A stretch of DNA of 64,000 bases from the NCBI RefSeq assembly GCF_009792295.1, contig NZ_CP039934.1:3678501-3742500 (forward strand), given 5' to 3'. Numbering within the stretch: position 1 is the stretch's first letter; each line of letters opens with the position of its first letter. The DNA comes from Myroides fluvii (GTDB taxonomy: Bacteria > Bacteroidota > Bacteroidia > Flavobacteriales > Flavobacteriaceae). Positions 5,102-45,829 of the stretch are shown here, in pieces. Position numbers and translations under genes: made by a program. The notes under the pieces were generated by a model. That model had not been told where the DNA came from. It did no database searches and worked only from the letters and a program-made list of their open reading frames with translations.

Positions 5102-5129
5102 ATAAAAAGGCGCGGAACTAAGATCAATC

Positions 5130-5243: not shown

Positions 5244-5356
5244 TACCAAAACGACAGCTCACGCTTGTTTATAATATTTTCAAATACAAATGTAGAGAAT
5301 ATCTACTTAATTCAAACAGACAATCCTTATCTTAGAAAAGAAAAAAATCAAATACT

Positions 5357-5707: not shown

Positions 5708-5718
5708 ACAACTAGCTT

Positions 5719-5955: not shown

Positions 5956-6001
5956 TTTTATTATCCGTTCATTATTCAGTGTTTATCCTGATGAAATTAT
6001 T

Positions 6002-6027
6002 AAAAGTTTCTTTGTTAAGAAACTTTT
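6002..6027 (+). promoter_or_regulatory. Perfect palindrome upstream of XRE regulator
   Basis: AAAAGTTTCTT and AAGAAACTTTT (11 bp each, perfect) around a 4-base loop, 30 bp before the HTH gene at 6057. It could be the operator for that XRE-type protein or a terminator for the upstream operon; a loose T-rich stretch follows it. Confidence 0.5.
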
Positions 6028-6056
6028 GTATTTTTAGGTCTTTAAATCAGCTGACT

Positions 6057-6344: not shown

Positions 6345-6502
6345 CATCATCACCAAGAATAATACTTTTTCTAACAAAAACAACATAGTAACCCTAAAGA
6401 ATAGAATAATTTGACCTTTTTTATAAAGCAATGTCAAATTAGATACACTATAATCTAATTGAGTACATGAAACAACTGCAATAGTAACTTAAAATAAATA
6501 AC

Positions 6503-6934
6503 ATGAAATTAAAAATAGATGAAGGACTAGACCCATCCCGAGTATTCACATTAATTCCCAAATTAAAGAAATTATTCAGACCAATTAAAGTTCAAAATAA
6601 CAGTGAGTTTATAGATAAATTGTTGAAGAAACCTTTTGAAATTCTAGATATAATAAGTGAATCATATATACTTGAAGGTCATGAAGATTTTCATTTACAT
6701 TGCATTCTTTATAGTAATATTCCTATTTACTTCAGTGCTGCAATTGGAGATGGAGCAAATTGTTGGATAGGCGGTGAAAAACCGAATGGTGAAAGTTTAT
6801 ATGATGTTGATGACAGACAGGGGTTGATTGATACTTTGGAAAGTTTAAATTTACCCAAGACAATAATTTTTACTGAAGTAATACTAACACAAGATATTGA
6901 GGGCTCGGAATGTGAATTCAAGTACAAAATCTAA
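6503..6934 (+). CDS. Hypothetical protein
   Basis: 143-residue soluble alpha/beta protein of unknown function. It has no signal peptide, and a central Gly-rich turn (AAIGDGANCWIGGEKPNGES) followed by acidic helices. Size, acidity and position in an element cargo zone resemble immunity-type or anti-restriction proteins, but no family is claimed. Codon use is AT-rich like its surroundings. Confidence 0.55.
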   Translation: MKLKIDEGLDPSRVFTLIPKLKKLFRPIKVQNNSEFIDKLLKKPFEILDIISESYILEGHEDFHLHCILYSNIPIYFSAAIGDGANCWIGGEKPNGESLYDVDDRQGLIDTLESLNLPKTIIFTEVILTQDIEGSECEFKYKI

Positions 6935-7252
6935 GATTAGAACATGAAGCCTTTGATTAATTTGTAGTCTCCAATTCAAGTAAAGGATGACCCCAAAATC
7001 ATCAGATTTGTTTTTTATTAAATTTAAAATAGAACAACTAAATGAAAAACATACTAGATCAAAATATAATATGCTCTGGCTGTAAATTGATCTTATTAGT
7101 TGAATAACTTTCCTTTGTTTTCTAATGGTTCCCTATATTATTAGCTGTATATTTAGCCTTTGAATTTTATTTATTTTTTCAAAATAAAACTCACTTAATA
7201 AAGGTAGCCCATGGCAAACCCATAAATAAAGCAAATCAGATTTTTATTACAA
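6935..7252 (+). other. Leader region of the hsd operon
   Basis: About 320 bp without a gene. It is very AT-rich and should contain the hsdM promoter; near-matches to TAnnTTTG such as TAGCCTTTG near 7150 are present but have the wrong spacing, so no promoter is fixed. Confidence 0.4.
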
Positions 7253-8809
7253 ATGACAAGAGAACAAGAGCGTGACGAATTACACCGTGCCATATGGCAG
7301 ATTGCTAATGATTTAAGAGGAAGTGTTGATGGATGGGATTTTAAATCCTATGTTTTAGGGATTTTATTTTATCGTTTTATCTCAGAAAATTTAACAACAC
7401 ATATCAATAAAGCAGAATGGGAAACAGGGAATACTGATTTCGATTTCGCGAAACTTTCAGATGAAAATGCCGAATTTGGTAGAACAGATACCGTTTCTGA
7501 AAAAGGTTTTTTTATTCTCCCTTCCGAATTATTCCAAAACGTACAAAAAAATGCTGAGAACAATCCAAATTTAAATGTGGATTTACATCGCATTTTTAAA
7601 GATATCGAATCCTCAGCTAACGGCACCGAAAGTGAAGATGATTTAAAAGGACTGTTTGACGATGTGGATGTGAACAGCAACAAATTAGGAGGAACAGTTG
7701 AACAACGTAATACACGTTTAGCTAAAATACTAAACGCAATTGCTGGACTCAAACTAGGTGATTACCAAGATAATAATATTGATGCTTTCGGTGATGCTTA
7801 TGAGTACCTGATGACCATGTATGCTAGTAATGCAGGTAAATCAGGTGGTGAGTTTTTTACACCTCAGGAGGTTTCTGAGTTATTAGCTGAAATTACAGTT
7901 GTCGGTAAAACAGAAGTAAATAAAGTGTATGATCCTGCATGTGGTTCAGGTTCTTTGTTATTAAAGTTTGCCAAAGTATTGGGTAAAGACAATGTGCGCC
8001 AAGGCTTTTATGGTCAAGAAACCAATATTACAACCTATAACCTTTGTCGTATCAATATGTTTTTGCACGATATTAATTTCGAGAAATTTAATATCGCACA
8101 TGGCGATACCTTGATGGATCCAATGCATTGGGACGACGAACCGTTTGACGCCATTGTTTCTAATCCACCGTATTCTATTAAATGGGACGGTGATGCCAAT
8201 CCACTATTGATTAACGATCCTCGTTTTGCACCTGCTGGCGTTTTAGCTCCTAAATCTAAAGCTGATTTAGCGTTTACCATGCACATGCTTTCGTGGTTAG
8301 CAACTTCTGGAACGGCGGCTATTGTTGAATTTCCTGGGGTATTGTACCGTGGTGGTGCAGAACAAAAAATTCGTAAATACTTAATTGATAACAATTATGT
8401 TGATACAGTAATTCAATTACCGCCCGACTTATTCTTTGGTACAACCATAGCTACTTGTATTATCGTTTTAAAGAAAAGTAAAAAAGATAATGCAACCTTG
8501 TTTATTGATGCTTCTGCCGAATTTGTGCGTGGAGGAAATAAGAATAAATTATCGGACGACAACCGCAAAAAGATTTTAAATACATTTATTTCTCGAGAAA
8601 GTGTCGATCATTTTGCACGTTTAGTACAAAACAGTGAGATTGCAGAGAACGATTACAATATTGCTGTAAGTAGCTATGTAGAACAAGAAGATACTACAGA
8701 GAAAATAAACATTGTAGAATTAAATCAGCGCATTAAAGATATTGTAATAAAGCAACAAGAGTTACGCATGGCTATTGATGCTATTGTGAATGATTTAGAA
8801 AATAAATAA
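7253..8809 (+). CDS. hsdM: Type I restriction-modification DNA methyltransferase
   Basis: N6-adenine methyltransferase subunit of a type I R-M system, acting with HsdS to protect host DNA and with HsdR to restrict foreign DNA. The HsdM N-terminal helical domain is at about 8-150. The catalytic domain has FFTPQEV near residue 201, the AdoMet motif DPACGSGSLLL near 226 and the N6-adenine catalytic motif NPPYS near 304. Length (518) is normal. It leads the order hsdM-rhuM-hsdS-hsdR with 11 bp to the next gene, so it is the first gene of the operon. Confidence 0.97.
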   Translation: MTREQERDELHRAIWQIANDLRGSVDGWDFKSYVLGILFYRFISENLTTHINKAEWETGNTDFDFAKLSDENAEFGRTDTVSEKGFFILPSELFQNVQKNAENNPNLNVDLHRIFKDIESSANGTESEDDLKGLFDDVDVNSNKLGGTVEQRNTRLAKILNAIAGLKLGDYQDNNIDAFGDAYEYLMTMYASNAGKSGGEFFTPQEVSELLAEITVVGKTEVNKVYDPACGSGSLLLKFAKVLGKDNVRQGFYGQETNITTYNLCRINMFLHDINFEKFNIAHGDTLMDPMHWDDEPFDAIVSNPPYSIKWDGDANPLLINDPRFAPAGVLAPKSKADLAFTMHMLSWLATSGTAAIVEFPGVLYRGGAEQKIRKYLIDNNYVDTVIQLPPDLFFGTTIATCIIVLKKSKKDNATLFIDASAEFVRGGNKNKLSDDNRKKILNTFISRESVDHFARLVQNSEIAENDYNIAVSSYVEQEDTTEKINIVELNQRIKDIVIKQQELRMAIDAIVNDLENK

Positions 8810-31575: not shown

Positions 31576-31654
31576 AAAAAATGATATATTCAAATAATTT
31601 AATGAAAAAGATGTGGTATTAACCCGATATTGTAATGAAAGAACACCTAAACTT

Positions 31655-32554
31655 ATGGCCAAGCGCGATTTTATAAAACGTCACTTACTCATCATCGAAC
31701 TACTGCGAAAAAGACCGAGTACCTATGAGGATATCCTCCATTACCTAAATAACAACCAAGATCAAATTGGCTATCAATTGGAAATTAGTCAACGAACCCT
31801 GCAACGAGATCTAAAAGAAATTGATTCCATTTGGGGTATTGAGATTGCTTACAATCGAAGTAAGCAGGCGTATGAAATTGAACGTGAGGAATATGCAGAG
31901 GATGAAACCATTCAACGAACGCTGGAATCTTTTGATTTAATTTCCGCTTTAAAGCAAAATAGAAAAGTGGGAAAAAGCATTTTTTTAGAAAAGAGAAAAT
32001 CCTCTGGAAGTGAGCATTTTAATGGCCTCATCCACGCCATAGACAACCACCTGATCATCGCCTTTGATCACTTGAGTTTTTCTAAAGAACCTAGTGCCAG
32101 ACGTTGCGTACCCATAGCCATTAAAGAATCTCAAAACCGATTTTACCTAATCGCTTATGACCTTGATGTCAAAGATTTTAGGAATTTTGGACTAGAACGA
32201 GTGGCCAATTTAGTGCTCACAAACGAAAGAGGAAATAGCCCCAAAATAAACATTGAAAAGTCCTATCAACACGCTTTTGGAATCGAGCGCTACGAAGCCG
32301 CTCAAAAGGTAGTCTTGCAATTTGACATTCAACAAAAGGAGTATGTAAAATCACTGCCTTTTCATCACTCCCAGCGCATTATTGCCGAAGATCAAAACCA
32401 TTTTACCTTAGAGCTTTTTCTCCATCCTACGCATGATTTTCTATTAGAGATTATGCGTCATGGCCCTATTTGTGAGGTGATTGAACCTGTTATGCTCAGA
32501 GATCTAGTAAAAGAACGCGTTAAAAAATTAGCGCAAATATATCAGATAGCGTAA
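31655..32554 (+). CDS. WYL-domain transcriptional regulator
   Basis: 299 residues. An N-terminal winged HTH is visible (YEDILHYLNNNQDQIGYQLE, ISQRTLQRDLKEIDSIWGIE), followed by a WYL ligand-binding domain (about 125-220) with SARRCVPIAIKESQNRFYLI, AYDL and FGLERVANLVL, and a WCX-like C-terminal domain. WYL regulators often control phage-defence or DNA-damage loci. ATG 31655 begins the normal HTH; the GTG at 31613 adds residues without family match. A PD-(D/E)XK nuclease gene follows 27 bp downstream. Confidence 0.92.
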   Translation: MAKRDFIKRHLLIIELLRKRPSTYEDILHYLNNNQDQIGYQLEISQRTLQRDLKEIDSIWGIEIAYNRSKQAYEIEREEYAEDETIQRTLESFDLISALKQNRKVGKSIFLEKRKSSGSEHFNGLIHAIDNHLIIAFDHLSFSKEPSARRCVPIAIKESQNRFYLIAYDLDVKDFRNFGLERVANLVLTNERGNSPKINIEKSYQHAFGIERYEAAQKVVLQFDIQQKEYVKSLPFHHSQRIIAEDQNHFTLELFLHPTHDFLLEIMRHGPICEVIEPVMLRDLVKERVKKLAQIYQIA

Positions 32555-32581
32555 CACAATTTAAAATATAAATCAAATAAT

Positions 32582-33682
32582 ATGAATGAATTACAAGATT
32601 TTTTAGACAACTGTCAATTACCCGACACCACTCATATCCAAGATACTTTCTTTTCTGCTACTAAGATGACTCGAAGGGAAGAACTGTGGACTAATTTATA
32701 TGCTTTTTTCTTCGATTGTAATGCACGACATAATCTAGGTACACTTTATATTGACACATTTCTTGAAGTAATAAACAAAAAGAGCGTATCGAAAACTAAA
32801 ATCGACTTACAAAGCTCTTACATTTTGAAACCAGAAGAACCAACACTAAAAGGTGGTAGAATCGATTTAGTAATCGAAGACAAACAAACGTCTATAATTA
32901 TTGAAAATAAAGTAGGTCATCATTTAGCTAATGATCTAAAAGACTATTATAACAGTATCACAAATCAAAATAAAGTCGGGATTGTTCTAAGTATAAAAAA
33001 ATATTCTCAAGCAGAATTAACGGAACATTTTATCAATATTACCCACGAAGAATTAATTCTAGCGATGTATGTAGCCTATGAAACAAACAAAGAACAAGGC
33101 GAACTGAAATACAACATTCTCTTTGAGGAATTCTACAAAAATGTAATAAATGAATCTAAAACAATTAACATGGAACAAGTGAATTTTTACCTAAAAAATA
33201 CGGAGAAAATCAATGATATTGTTGAAATAAAAAAACAATATGAACAACATATAGCTAAACAATTGAATGATGTAAAGGACAGTTATGAAGAAAATTTTGA
33301 GGTGATCCATTTCGATCAACGACATATCTTATATCTAAAAAATAAAAAGAACAATAACCTAATGATTACCCTGGTATATGATAATTTAGTTCAAGGAAAA
33401 CCGGAACTCCGTTTCTTTGTGGAACTACAGCATGATTTATTGCAGACTTTTAGAAGCAAATTCCAACTTGATAATTTTAACTTTGATGAAACCGAAAAGA
33501 AATGCCTTGTAAAAGAATTTACAAAGAACAAGGGGAAATGGGGACATTTTGCTTATCAACATTTTAAATTATCGGAAAAAAACATTAGCAACTTAGCTGA
33601 ATTTATTACTGAAGAACTAAATAAAAGTGCAGCTTTACACATCTATACTAAAATCGTAAATAACCCTCTTTTTCAAGATTAA
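32582..33682 (+). CDS. PD-(D/E)XK nuclease-family protein
   Basis: 366 residues. A PD-(D/E)XK nuclease core lies at about 80-130: GGRIDLVIED gives Asp95 and SIIIENKVGHH gives Glu108 and Lys110, the pattern of the PDDEXK_4-like family. The C-terminal part (about 210-366) is helical with a second alpha/beta segment. With the WYL regulator 27 bp upstream it looks like a two-gene unit. Anti-phage or DNA-maintenance roles are plausible by analogy with other WYL-nuclease pairs but not proven. Confidence 0.8.
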   Translation: MNELQDFLDNCQLPDTTHIQDTFFSATKMTRREELWTNLYAFFFDCNARHNLGTLYIDTFLEVINKKSVSKTKIDLQSSYILKPEEPTLKGGRIDLVIEDKQTSIIIENKVGHHLANDLKDYYNSITNQNKVGIVLSIKKYSQAELTEHFINITHEELILAMYVAYETNKEQGELKYNILFEEFYKNVINESKTINMEQVNFYLKNTEKINDIVEIKKQYEQHIAKQLNDVKDSYEENFEVIHFDQRHILYLKNKKNNNLMITLVYDNLVQGKPELRFFVELQHDLLQTFRSKFQLDNFNFDETEKKCLVKEFTKNKGKWGHFAYQHFKLSEKNISNLAEFITEELNKSAALHIYTKIVNNPLFQD

Positions 33683-33891
33683 AACACGATATCGATTAGG
33701 TAAAATTCGAGATAAAATAGGGGTAAACTTTGAATAGTTGTTTAACCCTTAAAAGGAATAATCTAACGACTTTCTAACTTTGAAAGAATGACGTAATACT
33801 ATATAAAATACGATGATCAACTTCTAAATTAGTTGCAATAAAACCTTATACTTTTTAGCTCATTTTTTGATCTATTACTTAGGAAAAGTAA

Positions 33892-36800
33892 TTATATTTT
33901 TTTTCTCTTTAAGATAAAAAATAAGAAAGTAACCACACATAAGATTGCAAATACATAAGATATTCCATTTTTCTTATTCGGTTCTTTTGCTAAAACTAGA
34001 GATGATTCATCACCAGACAGAATGAACCCAGCCCAATAAAAAGGATGTTTTAGTTGCTCTTCTTCTGTCATTTCTAAATACTTTAACTTAGCTATTCGCA
34101 AAGCAGTTGCTTTATCATCTTGCTCAAGTAATTGTTTGTAAAACGAAATCATAATCTGTTTTGTCGATAGATCCGGAGCATTCCACAAACTAGCAATAGT
34201 TGTTGGAATTCCAGCAGTATTAAATGCTTGTCGTATAGAAACCAAATTACCTCCATCTTTAAACCCTCCTATACCTGTATTACAAGCGCTTAAAACAGCC
34301 AAATCAGCCTGCAAATTAAGCCCATACAATTCCGAAATATACATTTTATGATCTTGTTCCGTATTAGAAAAAACGAGATTACTCAATTCAACATCTTCGT
34401 AATTTAAATCTGAGTGCATGGCCAAGTGTAAAATAGAGATCTCCTCCCGTAGAGATTTAAAGTTGGACTTAGATGCTGAAGGTCCCTTAAATATTTTATT
34501 TGGAATAAGTTTAGCTATTTCCATTATTTCTTCTTCAGCTCCTTTTAATGAATAGTTACTTCCTCGAACTGCTTGAATATTAGCTCTAACTTTTCCTTCA
34601 TATTCTGGAGCGAATAAGACAACTTGTTTAGTTGAAGTAGATGTTTTAAATTCCTTTTGTTTGTTTAAAAAAAAGAAATTGGGAGCATACGAAATCGTAT
34701 GCTCTTCAATAAGGTATTTATTGTTGTGCACTAAAACTTCAAAAGGTAAATAGTGCAAAATATCATCAGCAATAATAACGGTTAAAGGAGAATTCTCAAA
34801 ACCAGCAGGAAACAGCCTATTAAACAGATGATTACCTTGTTTTTTAATCACGTCAATAGGCGTACTTACATTAGTAAGTGAATATAAGTATGTCTCTATA
34901 TCGAGCTTCAAATCTGCATAATTTTCAATAGGCTGATAGGTCACCTTCCCTTTATCTAATTCAATCTTGACTAACTTATCTCCACTAACTTTAAATTTTA
35001 CAATTTTTTTATTGACTAATTCTTCTACCTGAATTTCGGGAATACTAAAAGCTATTCCTTGTTTATATGAAGCAAGTAAATGGCTCGTTTGATCACGGAG
35101 TTCTTTCTCTTTTTCAAAAATATTTTGGGCTATATGTTGACTCTTTGATTTTAAGTATTCTTTTTTCAAATATGTTAGATAAGCTCGTGTTTCTTGTTCT
35201 TGTTCCACTAAATCATACAACTGTTGATTACCAGTCATTCTCCTTTTTAGAAGAAACGTATTGATCAGATCTTGCGATGTTACAACCTCCATAAAGGTAA
35301 GGAGTTGGTTGTTTTTTTGATTTGAAAATGTTCCATTTGAAGCAAACGTCAATAATCCACTGACAATTTGATCAAAAGTTTGTTGAAGCTTGTCATTCAA
35401 AGGAGTAGTTCCTAGATTACTTTGAAACTCCACTAATGCAAGCCAATATAACTTTTCTTTCAAGAAAAGTAAATCCTCATTTGTCGAGGGCAGAGATTCT
35501 GCTAAACTGCAATAACGGGATGCATTTTGTATGTTATACCCTGGTTGATAGTTGATCACTTCGTCTGAAAGAAGATGAAAGGCCACTGGCGTGTTTTCAT
35601 TGATTAACTTATTTATTTCCTGCATAGCTTCTGTTGTACGCTTCAATTCAAGTAGAGCTTTTGCCTTACTGAAAGACAAATTTTGTTTGACCAAACTTGT
35701 ATTGGTTGGGTTCTTTTCTAAAACAGTTACTAATTGTAGTACTTTTGAATAAGCTTTCTTTTGTAGAAAAAAAACAGCTATTTTACCATTTAGTTCACTG
35801 TGTTGATCAACCTCTCCATATTGCTTATTAATTTTTAGCGCTTTCTTAAAGTATTCCAAGGCTTTTTCTGATTCCTTTCTAGCATAGAATTCCCCTGCTA
35901 ATTGCAAAGCATAGGTATAGGTATCATACTCATAGGAACGTAACTTTTCTGTTTGAACAAGCGATTCGATCTCTGACAATACCTTCACCAACATCGATTC
36001 GTTATTCTCAGCAGAATAAAGCCAAATCATGTTAGTATAATACGCTAATTCTTGGGAAACACCGATAGGGCTTTGTCTTAAACGTTGAATTGAGTCTTTA
36101 TTATTTCGGTACAGCTCAATGCCTTTTGTAAGATAACCCTCTGCTTTTTTATAGTTTCCAATATTAGTTTCAGCAATTCCTAAATCCATATAAATATTAA
36201 TTAGATAATAAATAGAAGATTCTGTTGTTGATTCTGATACGGTCCGAGCTAATTCTAAATATTTCAAACTTTTCGATCGCATGTACAGAAAACGATCACT
36301 ATAAAGTACAGATAAATCTCGATATGCTATGGCTAGCATGGTGTTATCTTTTCGTTTTTGAGCGAGGTCAATCAATTCATTAAAATAGGTTAGAGATTCC
36401 TGAAACGCTCCAAGATTTGTGGTTACTAGGGCCAAAGAGTGATACGATTTAAGCAAAAGTATTGAATCTACTTCCTTACTCATTTTATTATATATCACTT
36501 GTTGTTTTATGTGCTCATAGGCTTGTTGTTTACTTCTCAAAAAATTATAAGAAATCATTCCTAATCGCCTATGCATATGGGATATTTTTTCAGGGTTAAT
36601 CTCAGATTTATCACCTAAATGCCCCCTTAACTCCATGAGTACCTCCACACTTTCCAACATCTCATCATACCCTTCTTTATATGCTTTTGATGTAGCTATT
36701 AGGTATTCCGCTTGCGTAAATCTTAACTGTGCACTTAAACTTTTACGAATGTATTTATTTTCCTTCTCAGCTAGTTCAATCGCTTTTTCTCTATAATCTA

Positions 36801-36924
36801 TAGCCCTTTTAAAATGCTGATTCAAATCGAGTGAATCAGCTTTTTTTGTATGTCCTTGCCAGGATGTCTGAGCTGGAACAAAAATGGAATAAAAGATTAC
36901 ACAAAAAACAATTATTTTTTTCAT
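33892..36924 (-). CDS. TPR-CHAT protein, secreted and membrane-anchored
   Basis: 1010 residues. A signal peptide (MKKIIVFCVIFYSIFVPAQT) precedes about 500 residues of TPR-type helical repeats, a helical linker and a caspase-like CHAT domain (about 710-975). The catalytic pair is present: His in LHLAMHSD (about 837) and Cys in LSACNTGIGG (about 881), with later family blocks SLWNAPDLSTKQIM and HPFYWAGFILSGD. A single membrane helix at about 985-1004 ends in a basic KRKKI tail, so the TPR-CHAT body should face the periplasm. It is the last gene after a sigma factor and a membrane TPR protein. Protease activity and substrate are inferred. Confidence 0.9.
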   Translation of the reverse strand: MKKIIVFCVIFYSIFVPAQTSWQGHTKKADSLDLNQHFKRAIDYREKAIELAEKENKYIRKSLSAQLRFTQAEYLIATSKAYKEGYDEMLESVEVLMELRGHLGDKSEINPEKISHMHRRLGMISYNFLRSKQQAYEHIKQQVIYNKMSKEVDSILLLKSYHSLALVTTNLGAFQESLTYFNELIDLAQKRKDNTMLAIAYRDLSVLYSDRFLYMRSKSLKYLELARTVSESTTESSIYYLINIYMDLGIAETNIGNYKKAEGYLTKGIELYRNNKDSIQRLRQSPIGVSQELAYYTNMIWLYSAENNESMLVKVLSEIESLVQTEKLRSYEYDTYTYALQLAGEFYARKESEKALEYFKKALKINKQYGEVDQHSELNGKIAVFFLQKKAYSKVLQLVTVLEKNPTNTSLVKQNLSFSKAKALLELKRTTEAMQEINKLINENTPVAFHLLSDEVINYQPGYNIQNASRYCSLAESLPSTNEDLLFLKEKLYWLALVEFQSNLGTTPLNDKLQQTFDQIVSGLLTFASNGTFSNQKNNQLLTFMEVVTSQDLINTFLLKRRMTGNQQLYDLVEQEQETRAYLTYLKKEYLKSKSQHIAQNIFEKEKELRDQTSHLLASYKQGIAFSIPEIQVEELVNKKIVKFKVSGDKLVKIELDKGKVTYQPIENYADLKLDIETYLYSLTNVSTPIDVIKKQGNHLFNRLFPAGFENSPLTVIIADDILHYLPFEVLVHNNKYLIEEHTISYAPNFFFLNKQKEFKTSTSTKQVVLFAPEYEGKVRANIQAVRGSNYSLKGAEEEIMEIAKLIPNKIFKGPSASKSNFKSLREEISILHLAMHSDLNYEDVELSNLVFSNTEQDHKMYISELYGLNLQADLAVLSACNTGIGGFKDGGNLVSIRQAFNTAGIPTTIASLWNAPDLSTKQIMISFYKQLLEQDDKATALRIAKLKYLEMTEEEQLKHPFYWAGFILSGDESSLVLAKEPNKKNGISYVFAILCVVTFLFFILKRKKI

Positions 36925-37013
36925 ACTTGTTTATTTAACAATTCTAGAAGTGAAGTATAATCTACTCTAAAAAAGGTTTAATAATCGTAGGTTTTACCCT
37001 TACACTTTTTACT

Positions 37014-37730
37014 TTATTTTTTTATTTGCTTTAGTAATACTTGAGCTTCTTTCGCTTTACTTGATTGCAATTCAATAGTTTTAGTTAAATAATATTGTGC
37101 GCGCGCTATATTTTGTAACTTAAGATGAGCTAAGGCCAGATACCAATTTATTTGTCCTTCATAATTGCCCTTATTCTGCCAACTTGTTGTTTCAAGTACC
37201 TCAATGGCTTTCTCAATTTGATTATCTGCCAATAAACTCATCGCATAGTAAAAACAACTAACTTCTGTGTTATCTTCCTGACATAGAGAGTAAAACAGTT
37301 CAGTAGCTACATGATAATCTCGACTGTCATAAGCATTAAATGCTTGATCGATTTTCCTTACTGTAGTTTCTGTATAGCGTACAGTAGGAGCCACAACATT
37401 AGGATACACTTCAAAATATGTTTTATACGTTTTATCATAATTTTCTGGGGTATTAATCCAGTAAGCTATGCCTAATCCGACAACTAAAACAGCTGCAATT
37501 CGAAACCATACTCCCTTTTTATTGTGAATACTTTTCTGTTGATCCAACTGTTTCAAGCGTTCTTTTAACTTATTACGTTGATCTTTCTTGATAGCTTGAG
37601 CAAGCGACAATTGAAAAACAACCTCTTCTTTTATCTTTTGATCTTCCTCCACTTGTCTTTTTAACAAGGCCTTTTCTTCGGCAGTTACTTTGTTTTGAAC
37701 GAACTTGTCGATTAAATCTCCTATATTCAT
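37014..37730 (-). CDS. Single-pass membrane TPR protein, anti-sigma-like
   Basis: 238 residues. The cytoplasmic N-terminal part (1-72) has an anti-sigma-like start (IGDLIDKFVQNKVTAEEKAL) with charged helices. One membrane helix lies at about 75-92 (GVWFRIAAVLVVGLGIAYWI). The C-terminal part (about 120-238) forms TPR-like repeats (FNAYDSRDYHVATELFYSLC, AHLKLQNIARAQYYLTKTIE) outside the cytoplasm. The start overlaps the sigma-factor gene by four bases, so the proteins are made together. This layout fits a membrane regulator of that sigma factor, but this is inferred. Confidence 0.82.
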   Translation of the reverse strand: MNIGDLIDKFVQNKVTAEEKALLKRQVEEDQKIKEEVVFQLSLAQAIKKDQRNKLKERLKQLDQQKSIHNKKGVWFRIAAVLVVGLGIAYWINTPENYDKTYKTYFEVYPNVVAPTVRYTETTVRKIDQAFNAYDSRDYHVATELFYSLCQEDNTEVSCFYYAMSLLADNQIEKAIEVLETTSWQNKGNYEGQINWYLALAHLKLQNIARAQYYLTKTIELQSSKAKEAQVLLKQIKK

Positions 37731-38269
37731 TTTGTTTTAAATACTAATGCTTTAAGTTGCTTGATACAACGTGATTTTTGACTTTTTACTACATCGCTAG
37801 ATGCATAATTCAATTTTTGTTTGATTTGTTCCATAGATAAATTTTCATAATAAAACAACGTAAGTACTTCTTGACACCTATGCCCTAGTAATTGATAACT
37901 ACTTAGCACTTGTGCTAGCTGTTCTTCTTCTATTGCCCATTCTTCTTCTTTTTCTTGTTTTAATAAAAACTCATAATCAACAAAATCTTCCGTAACTATT
38001 TTTACGTTTAAACGATTGTATATTTTATATTTTCCAATAGCAAACAAATACGTCTTAATAGAACTACTAAAGACTTTCAGGTCTCCCGCAAGGATATTTT
38101 CATACATTGCGATAATACTGTCTTGATAGATATCAGCCGTATCTTGTTCACTTATAGCAAAACGCCCAGCGAATAGCGTAAATTCCTTTTTGTACAGCAT
38201 ATACACTTCTTCTATTGCTTTTTGTTCGCCAGCTTGTATTTGCTTGATTACTCTTTTTTCTCTACTCAT
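37727..38269 (-). CDS. Sigma-70 family (ECF-type) sigma factor
   Basis: 180 residues with the ECF layout: region 2 (EEVYMLYKKEFTLFAGRF, TADIYQDSIIAMYENI) with the helix that binds the -10 element (IKTYLFAIGKYKIYNRLN), a linker, and region 4 (HRCQEVLTLFYYENLSMEQI and SDVVKSQKSRCIKQLKAL). First gene of the sigma-TPR-CHAT operon. A -7 box and a G9 tract precede it. Likely target promoters include its own and possibly the adjacent lipoprotein set, not shown. Confidence 0.92.
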   Translation of the reverse strand: MSREKRVIKQIQAGEQKAIEEVYMLYKKEFTLFAGRFAISEQDTADIYQDSIIAMYENILAGDLKVFSSSIKTYLFAIGKYKIYNRLNVKIVTEDFVDYEFLLKQEKEEEWAIEEEQLAQVLSSYQLLGHRCQEVLTLFYYENLSMEQIKQKLNYASSDVVKSQKSRCIKQLKALVFKTK

Positions 38270-38330
38270 TACTATGCTCCTTACTCCTGTAAGTATTTAC
38301 ACGACCCAATTTATTTCTCCTTTCAGAACA

Positions 38331-38360
38331 CCCCCCCCCTCTATCCTTCAAACAAACATA
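38331..38360 (-). promoter_or_regulatory. Promoter box and G9 tract before sigma factor
   Basis: On the minus strand a perfect -7 box TATGTTTG lies at 38360-38353, followed 13 bases later by nine consecutive G (38339-38331), about 62 bases before the sigma-factor ATG. The tract falls in the predicted untranslated leader. No convincing -33 element is seen. Confidence 0.6.
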
Positions 38361-38582
38361 GACTTTTACACCAACTTAAGACGTCTTATAGTAAATAAAA
38401 TGTATTTTTTATGTTAAAATAAATAAATCTAAATAACTTCTTTTACTAAGAAAGAAGGATGTAAAAAAGGGAAGTTCCTCTGATTTCCTTGCATAAGTCT
38501 TTCTTTTTTTACTTATCCATTAGTTTGATTTGGTATTATGCCTTGCAAATGTACTCCGCCCATCTACCCCATACTGCGCAAA

Positions 38583-38616
38583 ACCTCCCTGCAGTTGAAT
38601 TAAACTACAAGGAGGT
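38583..38616 (-). terminator. Hairpin after lipoprotein operon
   Basis: ACCTCCctGCAGTT (38583-38596) with AACTaCAaGGAGGT (38603-38616): 14-bp stem with two mismatches, 50 bp past the stop of the last lipoprotein gene; only a short T-run follows on the minus strand. Confidence 0.6.
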
Positions 38617-38667
38617 AACATTTATGAGAAAAATTAAGGGTTAAATGAGAATAAGCTCCAAGACTGT

Positions 38668-39966
38668 TTACTGTTTTTCAACAACAAACAAAGCATTAGC
38701 ATAAGTACTATATTCTCCCGAAGACAAATTAAATGCTTGATTATTTTTCCAGTACTTAGCCACATAGTTTGATCCCTTTCCATCGTTTTCATATCCTATA
38801 ATATGCGTGGTATCTTGATGTAAAACAATATCATTGGCCCTAGACTCTTGTTTACCTTCTCCTAAAGGCAAGAATTCCTTTACTCCATTCTTCCAATAGG
38901 TAGCTACATAATGACGTCCATTACTTACCTGCCCAACCAAATGTGCAATTCCATTATCTATAACCACAGCATTCGCATAAGAAGATGACTCACCACCATC
39001 AAGATAGTGCAGGATGTGATCCTTCCAATAGACTGCCTTACCATCAAAATGTCCGGCCACATAAACGCTTCCAGCATCCAGGAACATGGCACGAGCATTA
39101 GCACTCTTTTTTCCATCCGATAGATGAACAGCAACGCCATTTTTCCAATACTTAGCTGTTTCAGGTCCGTTATCGTTCTTTTGAGTAGCTCCAGCTACAT
39201 AAACATCACCCTGCTCAACAGTAATCGACACGGCACCTCCGTAATTACCCGAAGTGTTTAAGCTTATCTCTGTACCGTTTTTCCAGTATTTGGTTGTAAC
39301 TTCCACACCGTCATATGACGTTCCTGCTACATATACATCCTCACCATCGACAAATATTCCACTCGCTATATTGTATTGACTTCCATCTGTTAATTCATAA
39401 CGAACGCCATTTTTCCAATACAAAGCAGTAGGATTATCATTGGGGTTATAACTATCCATTTCATAACCTGCGATATATACATTTCCTTGATTGACAAAAA
39501 TGTCCGTAGCAAAAGCGTGTCTTGTACCATCCGTGAGTACATGTAGTTTTTTATTTTTCCAGTAGACCGCTCTGTTTTTTCCATCGACATACTGATTTCC
39601 TACAATATAAAGATCGGTTAAACTAGTCGATACCTTGATCCAAAGTTCCTCACTATCCAAGTACCCTTCTTTTTTTGCGACAACCTTGTAGTTTCCTTCT
39701 TTTTCAAAAAGATATGAACTACCTGTTATGGGTTGATCATCAATGTAAATAGCAGCTTCTATTGCGGCATCTTCAAGGTAAACTTTGAAAGTTACTTCCT
39801 CATTTTCTTCTACTTCAGACAGGGAGCTGAACAAATTCAACTGCTTATCTTCTACAACTTCAACCTCTTGATGGATACCATCGTCCTTTGAACAAGACCA
39901 AAAAATAGCCATAAAGCATAGCATTAGCCCTAGGTAGATTCTAAACTGTTTCTTTTCTTTTTTCAT
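38668..39966 (-). CDS. Lipoprotein with seven YWKNG repeats
   Basis: 432 residues. A lipoprotein signal with lipobox (AIFWSCSKDD) is followed by a PKD/Ig-like segment (about 45-110) and seven repeats of about 45 residues. Each repeat has a VYVAG-type strand and a YWKN(G) turn followed by LTDG-like residues (for example AVYWKNKKLHVLTDG, ALYWKNGVRYELTDG). The repeat number suggests a seven-bladed beta-propeller on the cell surface. The stop is overlapped by no gene; its start overlaps the upstream gene by four bases. Function unknown, probably ligand or polymer binding. Confidence 0.82.
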   Translation of the reverse strand: MKKEKKQFRIYLGLMLCFMAIFWSCSKDDGIHQEVEVVEDKQLNLFSSLSEVEENEEVTFKVYLEDAAIEAAIYIDDQPITGSSYLFEKEGNYKVVAKKEGYLDSEELWIKVSTSLTDLYIVGNQYVDGKNRAVYWKNKKLHVLTDGTRHAFATDIFVNQGNVYIAGYEMDSYNPNDNPTALYWKNGVRYELTDGSQYNIASGIFVDGEDVYVAGTSYDGVEVTTKYWKNGTEISLNTSGNYGGAVSITVEQGDVYVAGATQKNDNGPETAKYWKNGVAVHLSDGKKSANARAMFLDAGSVYVAGHFDGKAVYWKDHILHYLDGGESSSYANAVVIDNGIAHLVGQVSNGRHYVATYWKNGVKEFLPLGEGKQESRANDIVLHQDTTHIIGYENDGKGSNYVAKYWKNNQAFNLSSGEYSTYANALFVVEKQ

Positions 39967-40736
39967 TTGTATTCTTCTTTTAGTGTATTCAAGTGAGAAC
40001 CTTCTTCCGTTCTTTTAAAAACATTCCGCAAATTACCTATGGATAACTGGAGTGTTGTACTCGTTAGCTGGGTTATTCTCATAGGTACTTCACCAGCTTT
40101 AGTAGTAATGAATAAAGTGTCCTTACCCACTAGTCGATAGGTACTCGCCAGTATCTCACTATCTACACAACCTTCCTCTTCCTCTTCATAGGATTGACCT
40201 AAAAAGGTATAATCAGCGAAAAAATGATAAAACGATTCCCTTTCACAAGCGGTTAAAGACACCTCCACTTCACCTCTAAACTCCTTATCTCTCATCCATT
40301 TACCACGGATAAACTCTTCGGTTGTAAGTTTACGTGTTTTAAACACACCTATTTTACTATTACTCGTATTTCCTTTAGCGTCTTTGGCAACAACATACCA
40401 ATAGTAAGTTGTATCAGGGCTGAGTATATTTTGTAAACGATAGGTGGTTGTTCTTAAGTTTTCTACAGGCCTACTTTGTGGTAAATCAATCGTATCCAAA
40501 TACAAGGTATAATATATTTCTCGGTCATCCGATAGACGAATTGCCTGCCATTCAAAGGTAAGTCCTTCAAAATCCACCTCCATTAATTGATCTGCTGGTG
40601 TTAGCAATACCGCTTGTTCTAGTTCAACATAAGCTGCATCATCATTCTTTGAACAGCTTAAAAAAAGTGCTATTCCTACCATTATTCCAACCAAGCGCCT
40701 GCCTTGTTGAAACAAGGTATTTCTCCCATTTTTCAT
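39963..40736 (-). CDS. Lipoprotein with fibronectin type III-like domain
   Basis: 257 residues from ATG 40736 (ATG 40751 and 40772 are alternatives, the latter running into the upstream gene). The lipobox is IALFLSCSKND. A fibronectin III-like region follows (TFEWQAIRLSDDREIYYTLY, then SPDTTYYWYVVAKDAKGNTS), then a C-terminal beta-rich domain with a Cys pair. It overlaps the next gene by four bases, so it belongs to the lipoprotein operon. Role unknown. Confidence 0.78.
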   Translation of the reverse strand: MKNGRNTLFQQGRRLVGIMVGIALFLSCSKNDDAAYVELEQAVLLTPADQLMEVDFEGLTFEWQAIRLSDDREIYYTLYLDTIDLPQSRPVENLRTTTYRLQNILSPDTTYYWYVVAKDAKGNTSNSKIGVFKTRKLTTEEFIRGKWMRDKEFRGEVEVSLTACERESFYHFFADYTFLGQSYEEEEEGCVDSEILASTYRLVGKDTLFITTKAGEVPMRITQLTSTTLQLSIGNLRNVFKRTEEGSHLNTLKEEYK

Positions 40737-40755
40737 TCTTATTGTACCCATGAGA

Positions 40756-41412
40756 CTATAAATTAAATTCAAATACTTCAGTGATAGTAAATTTTCCTTC
40801 GGTCATATTCAACTTAGCTCCTATTCCATCAAGCGGATATACATCAAAACTGAACGTACCTGAAAGTTTTGTATAACCTTCCACTCCTGTTGGATAGCCA
40901 AAAACGGTTTGCTCCCCAACCTCAGCACTTGTTATTTCTAAAGTTCCTACTTGTTTATCCGGATGATTGGCATCACCTGAAACATAGGTTGTCGTAGCGC
41001 GAAGGGCTCGATCCGAATTAAAAATGCCCCATGCAGTCCCTACTTCGAATTCTTTAAGGACAAGCGGATAGACCCCCTTAGGATCTTTAAACTTCTGCGC
41101 TGGAATTGCTACATATAATCCCATAGTTTCAACAAGATCCTCTTCAGTAGCGCTGTTGGTATCTATAATGCTGTGTGCACTAATGTAAAGGTAAAAATAA
41201 ATTTCTCCTTGTGTATTTTCTTGTTGCTCTGTAAGGAGGGTAGTCAAACTAGACTGCCAATCTTCTCCATTTACCTTCATAGACAATTGGGTTTTCCCTT
41301 CTCCTAGAGACGTTGAATCCGCCAAATCATTCTTTGAGCAGGAGGTAATCGTCCACCCAAATAGTAGTAAAATAATTAGACTTCCGAAGCTAGTAGTAAA
41401 AATTGTTCTCAT
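40756..41412 (-). CDS. Lipoprotein, hypothetical
   Basis: 218 residues with a signal and lipobox (WTITSCSKND). The mature part is beta-rich, opens with LSMKVNGEDWQSSL, and has the layout of small DUF6252-type surface lipoproteins; I cannot fix the family. It lies 11 bp before the beta-barrel gene on the same strand and is part of the five-gene set. Confidence 0.72.
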   Translation of the reverse strand: MRTIFTTSFGSLIILLLFGWTITSCSKNDLADSTSLGEGKTQLSMKVNGEDWQSSLTTLLTEQQENTQGEIYFYLYISAHSIIDTNSATEEDLVETMGLYVAIPAQKFKDPKGVYPLVLKEFEVGTAWGIFNSDRALRATTTYVSGDANHPDKQVGTLEITSAEVGEQTVFGYPTGVEGYTKLSGTFSFDVYPLDGIGAKLNMTEGKFTITEVFEFNL

Positions 41413-41423
41413 ACTTCATTTTT

Positions 41424-41948
41424 TTATAAAGAAAAATTATACCCTACACGCAAAGCAAGGAAATTCGTTTGATCAACAAGTTGATAGCGTAGCCCTAAAT
41501 CCCAATCTCCAAATTCATAACCACCACCTAAGCCAACTGAAAACTTTGTTGCCGAATTCGTTCCAGATGCACCGTCAAATAGACCTGCTACTCCTTTTAC
41601 ATTCACTTTTGATTGCAAAAAAGCAACCCCCACCTGAGGTTCAGCATAGAAGCCACCAAATGTATGGCGATAGCCAAATTGAAGAGGAATCATGCCTACA
41701 TGTCCACTAACAAACGTATCGCTTTTTACACCAAAATGGATATATCCCAGTGTAGCTGTTAGATCAGCATCCGCATTTAATCCATAAAAGACCTTAGCTG
41801 AGGCACCAAAACCAGTAGCGTAGACATCGCCAAAAGTTCCCATAGGCAAGGCTAACTCCGCACCGATGCCCAACTTTCGAAATCCTTCTTGCGCTTGTAC
41901 CGTATTAAAAAGCAATACAGCAATCATTAAAGTATATATATATTTCAT
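41424..41948 (-). CDS. Small outer-membrane beta-barrel protein
   Basis: 174 residues. Signal peptide MKYIYTLMIAVLLFNTVQAQ, then alternating hydrophobic strands with Gly/Tyr/Phe pattern (KLGIGAELALPMGTFGDVYA, FGYRHTFGGFYAEPQVGVAF) and a C-terminal strand ending LRVGYNFSL, the outer-membrane insertion signature. Probably an eight-stranded porin-family barrel assembled with the surface lipoproteins of the operon. Confidence 0.85.
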   Translation of the reverse strand: MKYIYTLMIAVLLFNTVQAQEGFRKLGIGAELALPMGTFGDVYATGFGASAKVFYGLNADADLTATLGYIHFGVKSDTFVSGHVGMIPLQFGYRHTFGGFYAEPQVGVAFLQSKVNVKGVAGLFDGASGTNSATKFSVGLGGGYEFGDWDLGLRYQLVDQTNFLALRVGYNFSL

Positions 41949-42003
41949 TCTATTTCGTATTTGTATGTTTCGTTTTTTTATTTTAATAAGTTAAATTCTA
42001 ATG

Positions 42004-43236
42004 CTATAGCGTTTTACAATCCTCTAATCCTGCTTGATTGACATTGTTATAGGTAATGCGTTCTCCACCTGTTAATACACTAGGTTGCTGTTGATAGAGA
42101 ACACAAGAAAATATACCTTCAAAATGCGTATCTTCAAGTGATAGTCTACTATTTTTATCAAGTGCTACTGCTCCCCTATACAAATGATATGCTTTAGGAT
42201 TTCCTCCTGCATGTAGGATTTCAACATGTTTAAGTTGGTTGTTTGGGCTAGAATTATGATAAATAATATTACCCCAACTTCCTGCTGCTGCCGTTTCTCC
42301 TCTTATTATAATTTTTTCATCCGCCGTTCCAACAGCTTTTAAGCTTCCCTTAACCACAATTCGCTTATCTGCAGCCATCTCGATAACTGTACCTTTTTCT
42401 ATTGTTAAATTACCTTCTTTACCAACCTCAAAATTAAAAAGGCCACGAACTAAATACGGAACAGATAGTTTACTCATTGTCTGTGTACCTGAAATGGCTA
42501 ATTGACTTGAAACCTCTACTTTATTCGAACTATTATCGATAAACCTATTATCTCCTTTTAACAACCCTAAATAAGCCATAGTTAATTGCAAAGGCTTCTC
42601 ATTTTCTTTAAATGTATTTGTTTCAATGATTGTTTGAGCTTCATTCGTTGTATAATAAAGACTTACCCCCCATCCTTTACAATGCTGTACTAGGTTATTG
42701 GTGAACCGTAAACTCGATTGTGCTCCTATTACTATCCCACCTACTTCATTTGTTGCTTTAGAAATAGCTTTTCCACCAGCATATTCTATAATGGTATGAG
42801 TCATCTCATTTTTAGGATCATTGGTAGCGAAGAAAATCCCTCCCCAAGACCCTCTTTTTTTATCTACACCTGTAAACGTAATTGGCTTATCTGTTGTTCC
42901 TATTGCTTGCAAAGAGCCCTCTCTGGTTATCCAAAACCCTGTATCTGTTTCAAAAGCGATTACAACACCAGGTTCAATAGAGACATTATTTTCAATATTC
43001 AAATGACAAGTCACCACATAATCAACTGGAGCATTTGGATTATCTCTTAAAACAGCATCGGGATTTTTACTAAAATAATTACAGTCCAATACAATTGGAG
43101 GCTCTACCTCTATCGGATTAGCCTCTTTAGCATCAGTCGCTTGCTCTTCCACACTACAACCTACTACTAAAAGACCTAAAGCTAAAAGCCCTATAGTATA
43201 AAAAGGGGTAGCTTTCTTTTTTACGCGTTTCATCAT
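42004..43236 (-). CDS. Lipoprotein with beta-helix-like repeats
   Basis: 410 residues, first gene of the five-gene set. A lipobox (LLVVGCSVEE) precedes a Cys-containing segment and two beta-helix-like parts with similar blocks: SIEPGVVIAFETDTGFWIT followed by GSLQAIGTTDKPITFTG, and LTIEKGTVIEMAADKRIVV followed by GSLKAVGTADEKIIIRG. Right-handed parallel beta-helix surface proteins often bind or act on polysaccharides; no catalytic residues are assigned. Confidence 0.78.
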   Translation of the reverse strand: MMKRVKKKATPFYTIGLLALGLLVVGCSVEEQATDAKEANPIEVEPPIVLDCNYFSKNPDAVLRDNPNAPVDYVVTCHLNIENNVSIEPGVVIAFETDTGFWITREGSLQAIGTTDKPITFTGVDKKRGSWGGIFFATNDPKNEMTHTIIEYAGGKAISKATNEVGGIVIGAQSSLRFTNNLVQHCKGWGVSLYYTTNEAQTIIETNTFKENEKPLQLTMAYLGLLKGDNRFIDNSSNKVEVSSQLAISGTQTMSKLSVPYLVRGLFNFEVGKEGNLTIEKGTVIEMAADKRIVVKGSLKAVGTADEKIIIRGETAAAGSWGNIIYHNSSPNNQLKHVEILHAGGNPKAYHLYRGAVALDKNSRLSLEDTHFEGIFSCVLYQQQPSVLTGGERITYNNVNQAGLEDCKTL

Positions 43237-43813
43237 GTTTATTGATCATTTTAAGTTTTACGTTTTTCTTGAGAAATATCAACACACTGAGACTATGGAT
43301 CACAACAGTTGAACTATTCTTCTCCTAGTTAATAGCAAAAATTAAAAAAGGTAAACATGATTTATTCTTTTTTTTCTATTCAAATTGAGAAACCCGCAAG
43401 AACAACCACTTTAAACAAATCACAACCTATTAACTACCAATACAATACAAAAAAACATAAGAGTCATATGAACTAACAAAAAAGAATCAAAAAAAGATAA
43501 TTAACCATCATCAGCAAAGGATGTATAACCGAACCAATTACATTGTACTAGTCCAATGACTGTTGTTTAACTTCTACTTCTAAACTGTTCGTGCTATTAA
43601 TACGCCTATATTATTTTTTAATACCTAGGAAAATGAGTAGAATAAAGCAAGCGCACCAATCTTTTGTGCTAGGGAACACAAGTAGATTTTATACCAAACG
43701 ACATCTTCTTTTCAAAAACTGAACCTTACCTTTCTTTTCTATTTTAAAAAGCTTGATATAAGCTATCATTTTAGCTATTTTTACAAAATAAATAACACCT
43801 AAAACAAAGAAAT
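43237..43813. other. Divergent intergenic region
   Basis: About 580 bp between the lipoprotein operon (minus) and the BCCT gene (plus). It is AT-rich and must hold both promoters. No gene, RNA, clear hairpin or consensus promoter is seen. Confidence 0.4.
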
Positions 43814-45829
43814 ATGTCTTTTTTCCCAAAAATAAGAACAACCTTAAGCAAAGGAGTTATTCTGCCTAGCTTATTATTCATTGTTGGAATAAGTCTGCTA
43901 GCTGCTGTATTACCGAGCCAAACCAACCAACTGCTAAATAGTATTAAAAATTTCATTTTTATCAATCTGAATGGGGTATACGTTTGGTCTGTAACAGCAT
44001 TTATACTCTTTCTCATTTACTTGATGTTTAGTAAATACGGTACGATTAAACTCGGAAGTAATAATAGCAAACCTGAATACTCTTTTTTCTCTTGGATTTC
44101 AATGCTATTTGCAGCAGGAATGGGAATCGGTCTAATGTATTTTAGTGTAGCAGAACCCATCCAACATTTTTCAAATGAGGCCTTTAGTGAGCATACGGTC
44201 GTACAACGCGCTAGAGATGCTCAAATGTATACCTTCTTTCACTGGGGAATTCACGCTTGGGCTATCTATGCCATAGTGGGATTAGCACTGTCTTATTTTG
44301 CTTACCGATATAAACTTCCACTATCCCTTAGAAGTTGCTTCTATCCCTTGTTAAAAGATAGGATAAAGGGAAAATGGGGAAATACAATTGATGTTTTTGC
44401 GCTTTGCAGTACTTTTTTTGGTATTACCACTACGTTGGGTTTTGGAGTTGTTCAAATAAACTCTGGTCTTCAGCAATTGGGAATCGTTCCAGAAAATAAT
44501 TTCATCTATCAAATACTCATTGTAGCTGTCTTGGTATCTTTGTCCATTATTTCTGCTGTAAGCGGTTTAGACAAAGGGGTAAAACTACTAAGCAGTATTA
44601 ATATTATTGCCGTTGTGATTTTATTGCTTTTCGTATTAATCTTAGGACCAACTGTCTATTTGATTGGAAGCTTTACAGAAGGAATAGGACATTATATTAC
44701 CAATTTTTTCAATCTAACATTTAACACACACGCTTTCGATGAAAAAACCCAACCCTGGTTTTATGATTGGACTATTTTATATTGGGCATGGTGGATCTCT
44801 TGGTCTCCTTATGTAGGACTCTTTATAGCCAAAATTTCAAAAGGGAGAACCATAAAAGAATATATCGCAGCTGTATTACTCTTACCCACCTTATTTAACT
44901 TTATTTGGATGTCGGTATTTGGAAATAGCGCCATTTGGTTTGATATGCACATCGCAAATGGAGCTTTAAGCGCTATTGCTAGTAATCCTGATGTTTTGAT
45001 GTTTAAATTCTTAGATTATTTACCGCTAAGCCAAATTACTAGTTTTCTAACCATTTTAATTATTATTATATTTTTTGTCACATCGGCTGATTCTGGGATG
45101 TATGTTATGAATAGTATTGCTACAAAAAATGCTAAAATATCACCCAAATGGCAAACCATTGGCTGGGGTATCTTATTAGCTACCCTATCGTTGTTGCTTT
45201 TAAATGCAGGAGGACTCGCTGCTTTACAAAGCATGACACTTATTACGGCTCTTCCATTTTCAATAATTATGCTTTTGTTTATTATCAGCTTAATTAAAGC
45301 TTTAACCATTGACCAAAAATATTATGACACTGATTTTTCTAGTACAACAATTACTTGGTCTGGAGACACGTGGAAAGAAAGACTAAAACAAATTGTTTCA
45401 TTTGATGATAAACAAACCGTACATGAATTTATTGACACCACAGTAAAAAAAGCGTTTGAAGATCTCGAAGCAGAATTTGCAAAAAATAATATCGATGCCA
45501 AAATTAACAGGTATGATCATCCTTATAAACTGGAAATAGAAATTAAACACGATCTTATCAACAACTTCATTTATGGAGTGAAAACAGAATCTAAAATTGT
45601 TGCAGACTACCTATTAGCTGAAGATAACTTACCCGATGTAGATTCCAATAAAACATTTTATCCCATGTCTTACTTTGGTGATCAACGTCAAGGGTATGAT
45701 GTTCATATTTTCACTAAAAATGAACTTATTTCAGATGTGCTAAAACACTATGAGCGCTTTATTGAAATTATCTCAGAAAACAAAAACGAAATGTTTGTAA
45801 GTAGTAATACAAATCATAAACTTCGATAA
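43814..45829 (+). CDS. BCCT-family glycine betaine/choline transporter
   Basis: 671 residues, an inner-membrane Na+- or H+-coupled carrier for betaine, carnitine or choline used in osmoprotection. About twelve membrane helices span residues 15-505, with the BCCT signatures FAAGMGIGLMYFSVAEPIQH near residue 105 and WAWWISWSPYVGLFIAKISK, GRT near 323. A hydrophilic C-terminal domain of about 160 residues (from 510) resembles the regulatory extension of BetT-type members. Substrate cannot be fixed from sequence. Single gene with its own terminator. Confidence 0.94.
   Translation: MSFFPKIRTTLSKGVILPSLLFIVGISLLAAVLPSQTNQLLNSIKNFIFINLNGVYVWSVTAFILFLIYLMFSKYGTIKLGSNNSKPEYSFFSWISMLFAAGMGIGLMYFSVAEPIQHFSNEAFSEHTVVQRARDAQMYTFFHWGIHAWAIYAIVGLALSYFAYRYKLPLSLRSCFYPLLKDRIKGKWGNTIDVFALCSTFFGITTTLGFGVVQINSGLQQLGIVPENNFIYQILIVAVLVSLSIISAVSGLDKGVKLLSSINIIAVVILLLFVLILGPTVYLIGSFTEGIGHYITNFFNLTFNTHAFDEKTQPWFYDWTILYWAWWISWSPYVGLFIAKISKGRTIKEYIAAVLLLPTLFNFIWMSVFGNSAIWFDMHIANGALSAIASNPDVLMFKFLDYLPLSQITSFLTILIIIIFFVTSADSGMYVMNSIATKNAKISPKWQTIGWGILLATLSLLLLNAGGLAALQSMTLITALPFSIIMLLFIISLIKALTIDQKYYDTDFSSTTITWSGDTWKERLKQIVSFDDKQTVHEFIDTTVKKAFEDLEAEFAKNNIDAKINRYDHPYKLEIEIKHDLINNFIYGVKTESKIVADYLLAEDNLPDVDSNKTFYPMSYFGDQRQGYDVHIFTKNELISDVLKHYERFIEIISENKNEMFVSSNTNHKLR

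Follow-up and report, generated by a model that had tools for sequence, protein, structure and literature searches.

In a 64,000-nucleotide stretch of the Myroides fluvii genome (contig NZ_CP039934.1, positions 3,678,501 to 3,742,500 of the forward strand; hereafter, the window), three adjacent genes encode an extracytoplasmic function (ECF) sigma factor, a middle protein (MID), and a TPR-CHAT protein (hereafter, CHAT). We propose that they constitute one envelope-to-transcription switch, in which CHAT would cut MID at Arg118 to free the sigma factor; on balance, we consider this probable. The computed support comprises the conserved unit, the topology signals, the intact catalytic dyad, the separase/Csx29-like fold, and the conserved linker arginine, whereas we infer sigma inhibition, cleavage and its place, sensing, later proteolysis, and the target genes.

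According to the proposed scheme, the helical cytosolic N-terminus of MID would hold the ECF sigma factor at the inner membrane, the MID TPR domain residing in the periplasm, and CHAT would be exported and tethered via its C-terminal helix, with its long TPR array sensing a signal. Activated CHAT would then cut MID at the conserved Arg118, between the membrane helix and the TPR domain (site-1 cleavage), after which an RseP-type site-2 protease and then ClpXP might finish MID, by analogy with RseA (PMC10028731, partial text), and free the sigma factor. The latter would turn on genes of surface and outer-membrane proteins, often located divergently beside the sigma gene. The suggestion of the initial annotation that CHAT processes its TPR partner and thereby controls the sigma factor gains partial support from the candidate site Arg118 and from the solved precedent of Csx29 and Csx30 (PMC10028731, partial text), with both cleavage and inhibition presumed.

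Conservation and arrangement of the three genes

The open reading frame (ORF) coordinates bear out the annotated layout of three same-strand genes, the first two overlapping by 4 bp (37727–37730), all on the minus strand; MID and CHAT are separated by an 89-bp spacer (36925–37013) with no terminator-like site on the minus strand.

CHAT genes were found in 108 of 296 sampled genomes of the class, and linkage was assessed in three samples: one best-scoring CHAT from each of 60 of these 108 genomes; the best 80 of at least 541 confirmed CHAT relatives from named genomes, a selection biased to the window type; and 20 fetched stretches from the same genus. The ECF sigma genes were identified by an iterated profile, which converged at 103 matches. 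A sigma gene lies within 5 kb of CHAT for 66 of the 80 nearest relatives, for 14 of the 20 same-genus stretches, and for 14 of the 60 class-wide CHATs; judging by coordinates, five of the six same-genus CHATs lacking a sigma gene have MID just beyond the fetched stretch. In the class-wide sample, the sigma gene is present within this distance for nine out of 13 CHATs with a C-terminal transmembrane helix vs. five out of 47 without it (p = 7e-5). The association of sigma, MID, and CHAT recurs far above the chance expectation.

A lack of conserved three-gene order in relatives had been named beforehand as grounds for refutation; the genes do stay together, although both order and orientation vary. 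Counting the window, the 89 sigma-linked CHATs comprise 60 convergent, 18 divergent, and 11 co-directional cases, the last group including L131, which is excluded from the MID counts (its ORF following the sigma gene has no transmembrane helix). In 44 out of 60 convergent loci, CHAT and MID overlap at their ends, and the gap between the sigma gene and MID does not exceed 20 bp in 84 out of 87 relatives, i.e., the sigma-then-MID adjacency seen for membrane anti-sigma factors is retained. The nearest triad among the best 80 relatives, that of Myroides indicus (L041), is co-directional, like the one in the window. Since the gene set is constant while the order changes, these data point to function, and not merely to common ancestry of the stretch, as the reason for the linkage.

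The presence of CHAT and MID also coincides. In 61 genomes of the genus, 24 have both, one has CHAT alone, one has MID alone, and 35 have neither (Fisher's test, 1e-14), given a MID cut-off of E ≤ 1e-15, which was chosen once a gap between 7e-16 and 9e-9 had become apparent. The MID-only genome (G049, locus L181) has no CHAT and carries a sigma piece fused into a MID piece within one ORF, adjoining a gene that resembles the aspartyl protease of the related loci; this sequence is a remnant of a switch that decayed along with its protease. The CHAT-only genome (L182) retains a 539-amino-acid CHAT piece in a stretch without sigma or MID. Among the 296 class genomes, CHAT is present in 46 of the 50 with full MID (among the matches listed) vs. 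62 of the remaining 246, a biased figure, as most of the MIDs used to build the profile (A4) were CHAT-linked, which affects both the co-occurrence and the choice of the CHAT-less relatives considered below.

Several loci are organized in other ways. The main same-genus form (L024, positions 1517–8450) contains lipoprotein-like and PKD-DUF7849 genes, CHAT, and then a small retropepsin-like aspartyl protease (PF13650), and L025–L038 have genes that by appearance resemble those around the L024 CHAT. L043 (14382–20891) holds a second CHAT–MID–sigma set adjoining the first one, L066 (8075–16955) has three consecutive CHAT-like genes, and L106 (6185–10954), from an assembly titled candidate division KSB1, carries a co-directional sigma–MID–CHAT triad with an S-R-G linker.

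Predicted topology and folds

The sigma ORF scores 44.8 bits against TIGR02937 (cut-off 42.9), which assigns it to the ECF superfamily; its score against TIGR02985 (50.1 bits) is under the cut-off of that profile, and Pfam sigma regions 2 and 4 are also below their cut-offs.

MID had been described as having a single membrane helix and external TPRs. The former is supported by hydropathy, with one transmembrane helix from residue 74, and the latter by the AlphaFold2 model (predicted local distance difference test score, pLDDT, 90.1), although the Pfam TPR matches are all sub-threshold. The model consists of a helical N-terminus, the transmembrane helix, a short helix 98–105, coil 106–125, and a TPR ectodomain. 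A fold search limited to residues 121–238 revealed likeness to peptide-binding TPR chaperones, e.g., SycD and IpgC. Lys and Arg are more common before the transmembrane helix than after it in 82 out of 87 MIDs; hence, by the charge rule only, MID resembles membrane anti-sigma factors in having one transmembrane helix with the N-terminus inside.

CHAT matches PF12770 with 177 bits (cut-off 24), and TPRs were matched as well; no second CHAT was found in the genome. Its best structural match is Csx29, with which it shares the TPR-CHAT fold of the type III-E protein. His837 and Cys881 are invariant in two CHAT alignments (17 and 8 rows), and the dyad characteristic of CHAT peptidases is intact in all 89 sigma-linked CHATs, which are predicted to be proteases; loss of this pair in most homologs, set beforehand as grounds for refutation, was not seen. 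Hydropathy identifies hydrophobic stretches at both ends of the protein, from residue 4 and, as the C-terminal helix, from residue 987. With a looser cut-off, the C-terminal helix is present in 82 out of 89 sigma-linked CHATs; it is flanked by 47 Lys and Arg residues before vs. 301 after, and they are more common after the helix in 80 of these 82 proteins. Due to this bias of charged residues around the transmembrane helices, the ectodomains of both MID and CHAT are predicted to be periplasmic. Thus, hydropathy, Pfam, and the alignments agree with the originally noted signal peptide, TPR array, His837/Cys881 pair, and C-terminal anchor of CHAT. A different architecture is seen in L040 (6252–9275) and L183 (5615–8626), where CHAT has three hydrophobic helices at the N-terminus, lacks a C-terminal anchor, and directly follows a MID of about 380 amino acids.

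Linker arginine as a candidate cut site

The candidate cut site lies in the predicted coil between the MID membrane helix and the TPR domain (mean pLDDT 77 for block 111–120). As read from the MID alignment, the linker column contains Arg in 81 and Lys in five of 88 aligned MIDs; of the two exceptions, L161 has Arg beside the column and L178 is of the Met type described below. The following residue is Gly in 50 and Ser in 23 of 86 MIDs, and the preceding Y-P-N stretch is also conserved.

We then applied a uniform rule, Arg or Lys followed by Gly, Ser, Asn, Thr, Asp, or Ala, located 6–16 residues before the residue aligned with Ala130 (the first TPR alanine); no placement was possible for L145, L158, and L252. 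It holds for 83 out of 86 placed triad MIDs, mostly at distance 11 or 12, and for 11 out of 12 additional MIDs close to the profile that come from CHAT genomes (L193–L204), vs. 10 out of 29 placed MID-like proteins that were best matches in 80 CHAT-less genomes (five out of 17 with an adjoining sigma gene), many of the CHAT-less sigma-linked relatives being distant controls of 350–570 amino acids with a long linker. Shifted within the triad MIDs to five other positions, the rule holds for 27–43 out of 86. Because of these differences, we regard the linker motif as specific for MIDs with a CHAT partner and at the chance level without one.

Longer transmembrane proteins, mostly adjoining a sigma gene, with a MID-like TPR end and a long unrelated linker occur in CHAT-less genomes (L192, L227, L233, L234, L236, etc.). 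They possibly form a sister class of anti-sigma factors with another activator.

Alternatively, CHAT might control MID by a non-proteolytic route, in which the two TPR proteins bind each other and the linker Arg serves as a docking or hinge residue. The presence of TPRs in both proteins, the likeness of the MID ectodomain to SycD and IpgC, and the conservation of Y-P-N next to the linker Arg are consistent with such a role, yet the invariance of the dyad in the 89 sigma-linked CHATs is hard to square with a pure scaffold, and we regard this explanation as quite improbable.

A variant of the linker motif also occurs. Eleven out of 20 further MIDs of a single genus-level group, as well as L219, which belongs to another family, have DPGL-x-V-x-M-(S/G) at the linker place. 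In all 13 Met-type pairs with CHAT (L178 included), CHAT position 918 is Glu, whereas it is Asp in 97 out of 98 other pairs, the sole other Glu918 being that of L023, whose MID carries Lys. As 12 of the 13 pairs belong to a single genus-level group (g14; L178, L205–L215) and one to the other family (L219), they represent few events, and many other positions change along with D918E. Hence, the link between D918E and Met is suggestive of, but does not prove, an enzyme–substrate co-change. One more Met-type MID, L223, is located in a stretch without CHAT. Asp918 was also considered as the separase-type Arg-reading Asp; this assignment was dropped, as the profile alignment to Csx29 puts its Lys670 at position 922, and it is Lys670 that corresponds to the Arg-reading Asp2151 of separase (PMC9729208, partial text).

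The main rival explanation and observations weighing against the proposed switch

A number of observations weigh against cleavage of MID by CHAT as the activating step. No anti-sigma domain was found in MID among the Pfam and NCBIfam families. The alignment of Csx29 Lys670 with Lys922 of the window CHAT puts Lys, and not Asp, at the place of the Arg-reading Asp2151 of separase. Arg118 of the window itself precedes Tyr and not the usual Gly or Ser, so that it falls outside the stricter rule. The linker residue and the protease do not always coincide: L185 (G291), one of the closer CHAT-less relatives, keeps an R-G linker in a genome where CHAT was not found; the CHAT-less, sigma-linked, long-linker proteins L246 and L249 have V-R-N or V-R-T near the place; the Met-type MIDs and L204 have no linker Arg or Lys although CHAT is present. 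Finally, class-wide, 46 out of 60 CHATs have no sigma gene within 5 kb (some stretches end sooner at a contig edge), and in 18 of the 89 sigma-linked loci CHAT forms a separate, sometimes distant divergent operon, like a target gene.

The last two observations fit the main rival explanation, in which CHAT is a sigma target or effector: MID would be cleaved or released by a different protease, and CHAT would be driven by the sigma factor as an envelope effector acting, e.g., in proteolysis or cell death. The main same-genus type, where CHAT is found among lipoprotein-like, PKD-DUF7849, and retropepsin-like protease genes, also has a typical target-operon layout. However, the prevalence of convergent and co-directional loci (60 and 11 out of 89, respectively, L131 counted) implies that CHAT usually is not read from the divergent promoter, the near-perfect co-occurrence in one genus fits a direct link better, and the linker Arg/Lys is kept in triads, while being at the chance level in CHAT-less genomes. 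Taking all this into account, we consider the rival explanation unlikely and retain cleavage of MID by CHAT as the preferred one.

Comparison with known systems

One of the closest known parallels is the Craspase/CASP system of type III-E CRISPR, comprising Csx29 (TPR-CHAT), Csx30, and CASP-sigma (RpoE), where the RNA-guided Cas7-11 holds Csx29, target RNA activates it, and Csx29 cleaves Csx30, an inhibitor of the sigma factor (PMC10028731, partial text). In contrast to it, CHAT considered here has a putative signal peptide and a membrane anchor, and its partner is a TPR protein that spans the membrane. None of the eight proteins scanned (the triad and five neighbors) matched CRISPR families over the cut-off, the genome not having been scanned for Cas7-11 or arrays; MID has a sub-threshold match of 15 bits to the Cas6 N-terminal family.

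DegS is a PDZ serine protease, whereas the candidate here is a protease of the caspase fold whose gene adjoins that of the proposed substrate. The proposed logic is the same as in DegS–RseA–RpoE, where an ECF sigma factor is released once its single-pass anti-sigma factor is cut on the periplasmic side (PMC10028731, partial text). Eukaryotic separase cuts cohesin inside the eukaryotic cell, and the window CHAT does not share its S1 Asp at the aligned position.

Another relevant protein is DdvA, which combines an anti-sigma domain, a transmembrane helix, TPR, and CHAT in a single chain, whereas there are two chains in the window, and of the 194 CHAT ORFs of the fetched loci, none carries the MID N-terminus. 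As DdvA is a transmembrane anti-sigma factor of Myxococcus xanthus (PDB:8rot, 8rw5; PMC4374960, partial text), the link between CHAT and anti-sigma factors is already known in myxobacteria.

CHAT proteases may have varied substrates, bacterial gasdermin being cited as one (PMC9729208, partial text), and hence CHAT could act on another envelope substrate or on itself, with MID being a neighbor only via a shared stress response. The joint loss, including the decay of sigma–MID where CHAT is gone, and the conservation of the linker Arg/Lys argue against it, rendering it very improbable.

No description of the module was found in the titles and abstract beginnings of the literature searched, where subscription papers are largely missing, and only PMC10028731 joins "CHAT domain" with "anti-sigma." What is new is the two-protein, envelope-facing, apparently CRISPR-independent form, widespread in Bacteroidota and also present in the KSB1-titled assembly (L106).

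Features of the locus and candidate target genes

The coordinates of the genes and sites discussed above are given in Table 1.

Table 1. Features of the sigma–MID–CHAT locus (window positions).
Feature	Position	Strand	Basis
ECF-type sigma factor, 180 amino acids	37727..38269	-	TIGR02937 over cut-off
MID, putative anti-sigma factor, 238 amino acids: predicted cytosolic helical N-terminus, one transmembrane helix, periplasmic TPR	37014..37730	-	
MID transmembrane helix, about residues 74–92	37455..37511	-	Hydropathy; AlphaFold2 helix 76–92
MID Arg118, candidate cleavage (P1) residue, linker preceding the first TPR helix, Tyr next	37377..37379	-	
TPR-CHAT protein, 1010 amino acids, predicted secreted and C-terminally anchored	33892..36924	-	
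CHAT protease domain, residues 716–972	34009..34779	-	PF12770 match
CHAT catalytic His837 codon	34414..34416	-	His in 89/89 sigma-linked CHATs
CHAT catalytic Cys881 codon	34282..34284	-	Cys in 89/89 sigma-linked CHATs
CHAT N-terminal hydrophobic segment, putative signal peptide	36868..36924	-	Hydropathy only
CHAT C-terminal membrane anchor, about residues 987–1005	33910..33966	-	Hydropathy
Upstream run of five genes for lipoprotein-like and outer-membrane proteins, a candidate target operon	38668..43236	-	Partial conservation beside other triads

The neighbor upstream of the sigma gene is divergent in 67 out of 85 triads, and 55 of these 67 neighbors look secreted by a crude hydropathy rule vs. 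574 out of 1159 background ORFs. One neighbor cluster recurs in 22 loci, its representative being an OmpA-family protein. In the window, the upstream run has Pfam matches to beta-helix and outer-membrane barrel families, and its genes are candidate sigma targets. Homologs of the beta-helix protein (42004–43236) are found beside six other triads, those of 38668–39966 beside three triad loci, and none are listed for 39963–40772; 40756–41412 and 41424–41948 have a homolog in one locus each, that of M. indicus L041 (53% and 67% identity, respectively). Overall, M. indicus has matches to four out of five genes of the run, in one case over 26% of the length, and there the run and the sigma gene are divergent. 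In 78 intergenic stretches upstream of sigma genes, no common promoter dyad was apparent, the most frequent dyads being AT-rich and occurring in up to 21 stretches vs. 13–17 in five shuffles.

An Rfam scan of positions 33000–44000 yielded no families at threshold. On the other side of the locus, the plus strand (31613–33682) encodes a WYL-domain regulator followed by a PD-(D/E)XK nuclease protein matching the candidate defence family PDC-S26 (E-value 3e-31).

Implications for the Bacteroidota

A broader reading, which we offer tentatively, as possible rather than probable, is that the Bacteroidota have widespread sigma switches with a dedicated periplasmic separase-like CHAT site-1 protease that would have evolved together with the site it cuts in a membrane anti-sigma factor, with Arg/Lys followed mostly by Gly/Ser in most lineages, and Met followed by Ser/Gly in another, accompanied by D918E of the protease in 13 out of 13 pairs. 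The CRISPR Csx29–Csx30–sigma system would then be a cytosolic form, and the myxobacterial DdvA, a fused form of the same partnership.

Caspase-like CHAT proteases are abundant in bacteria, as the sampled class genomes show, but to our knowledge few of them have a known substrate. If the proposed switch is true, it would provide a predicted CHAT substrate and cut residue, a read-out at the level of transcription, and a candidate activating protease for one group of Bacteroidota ECF sigma factors; it would also suggest that the protease/anti-sigma logic of the Craspase type serves as an ordinary envelope signaling device as well.

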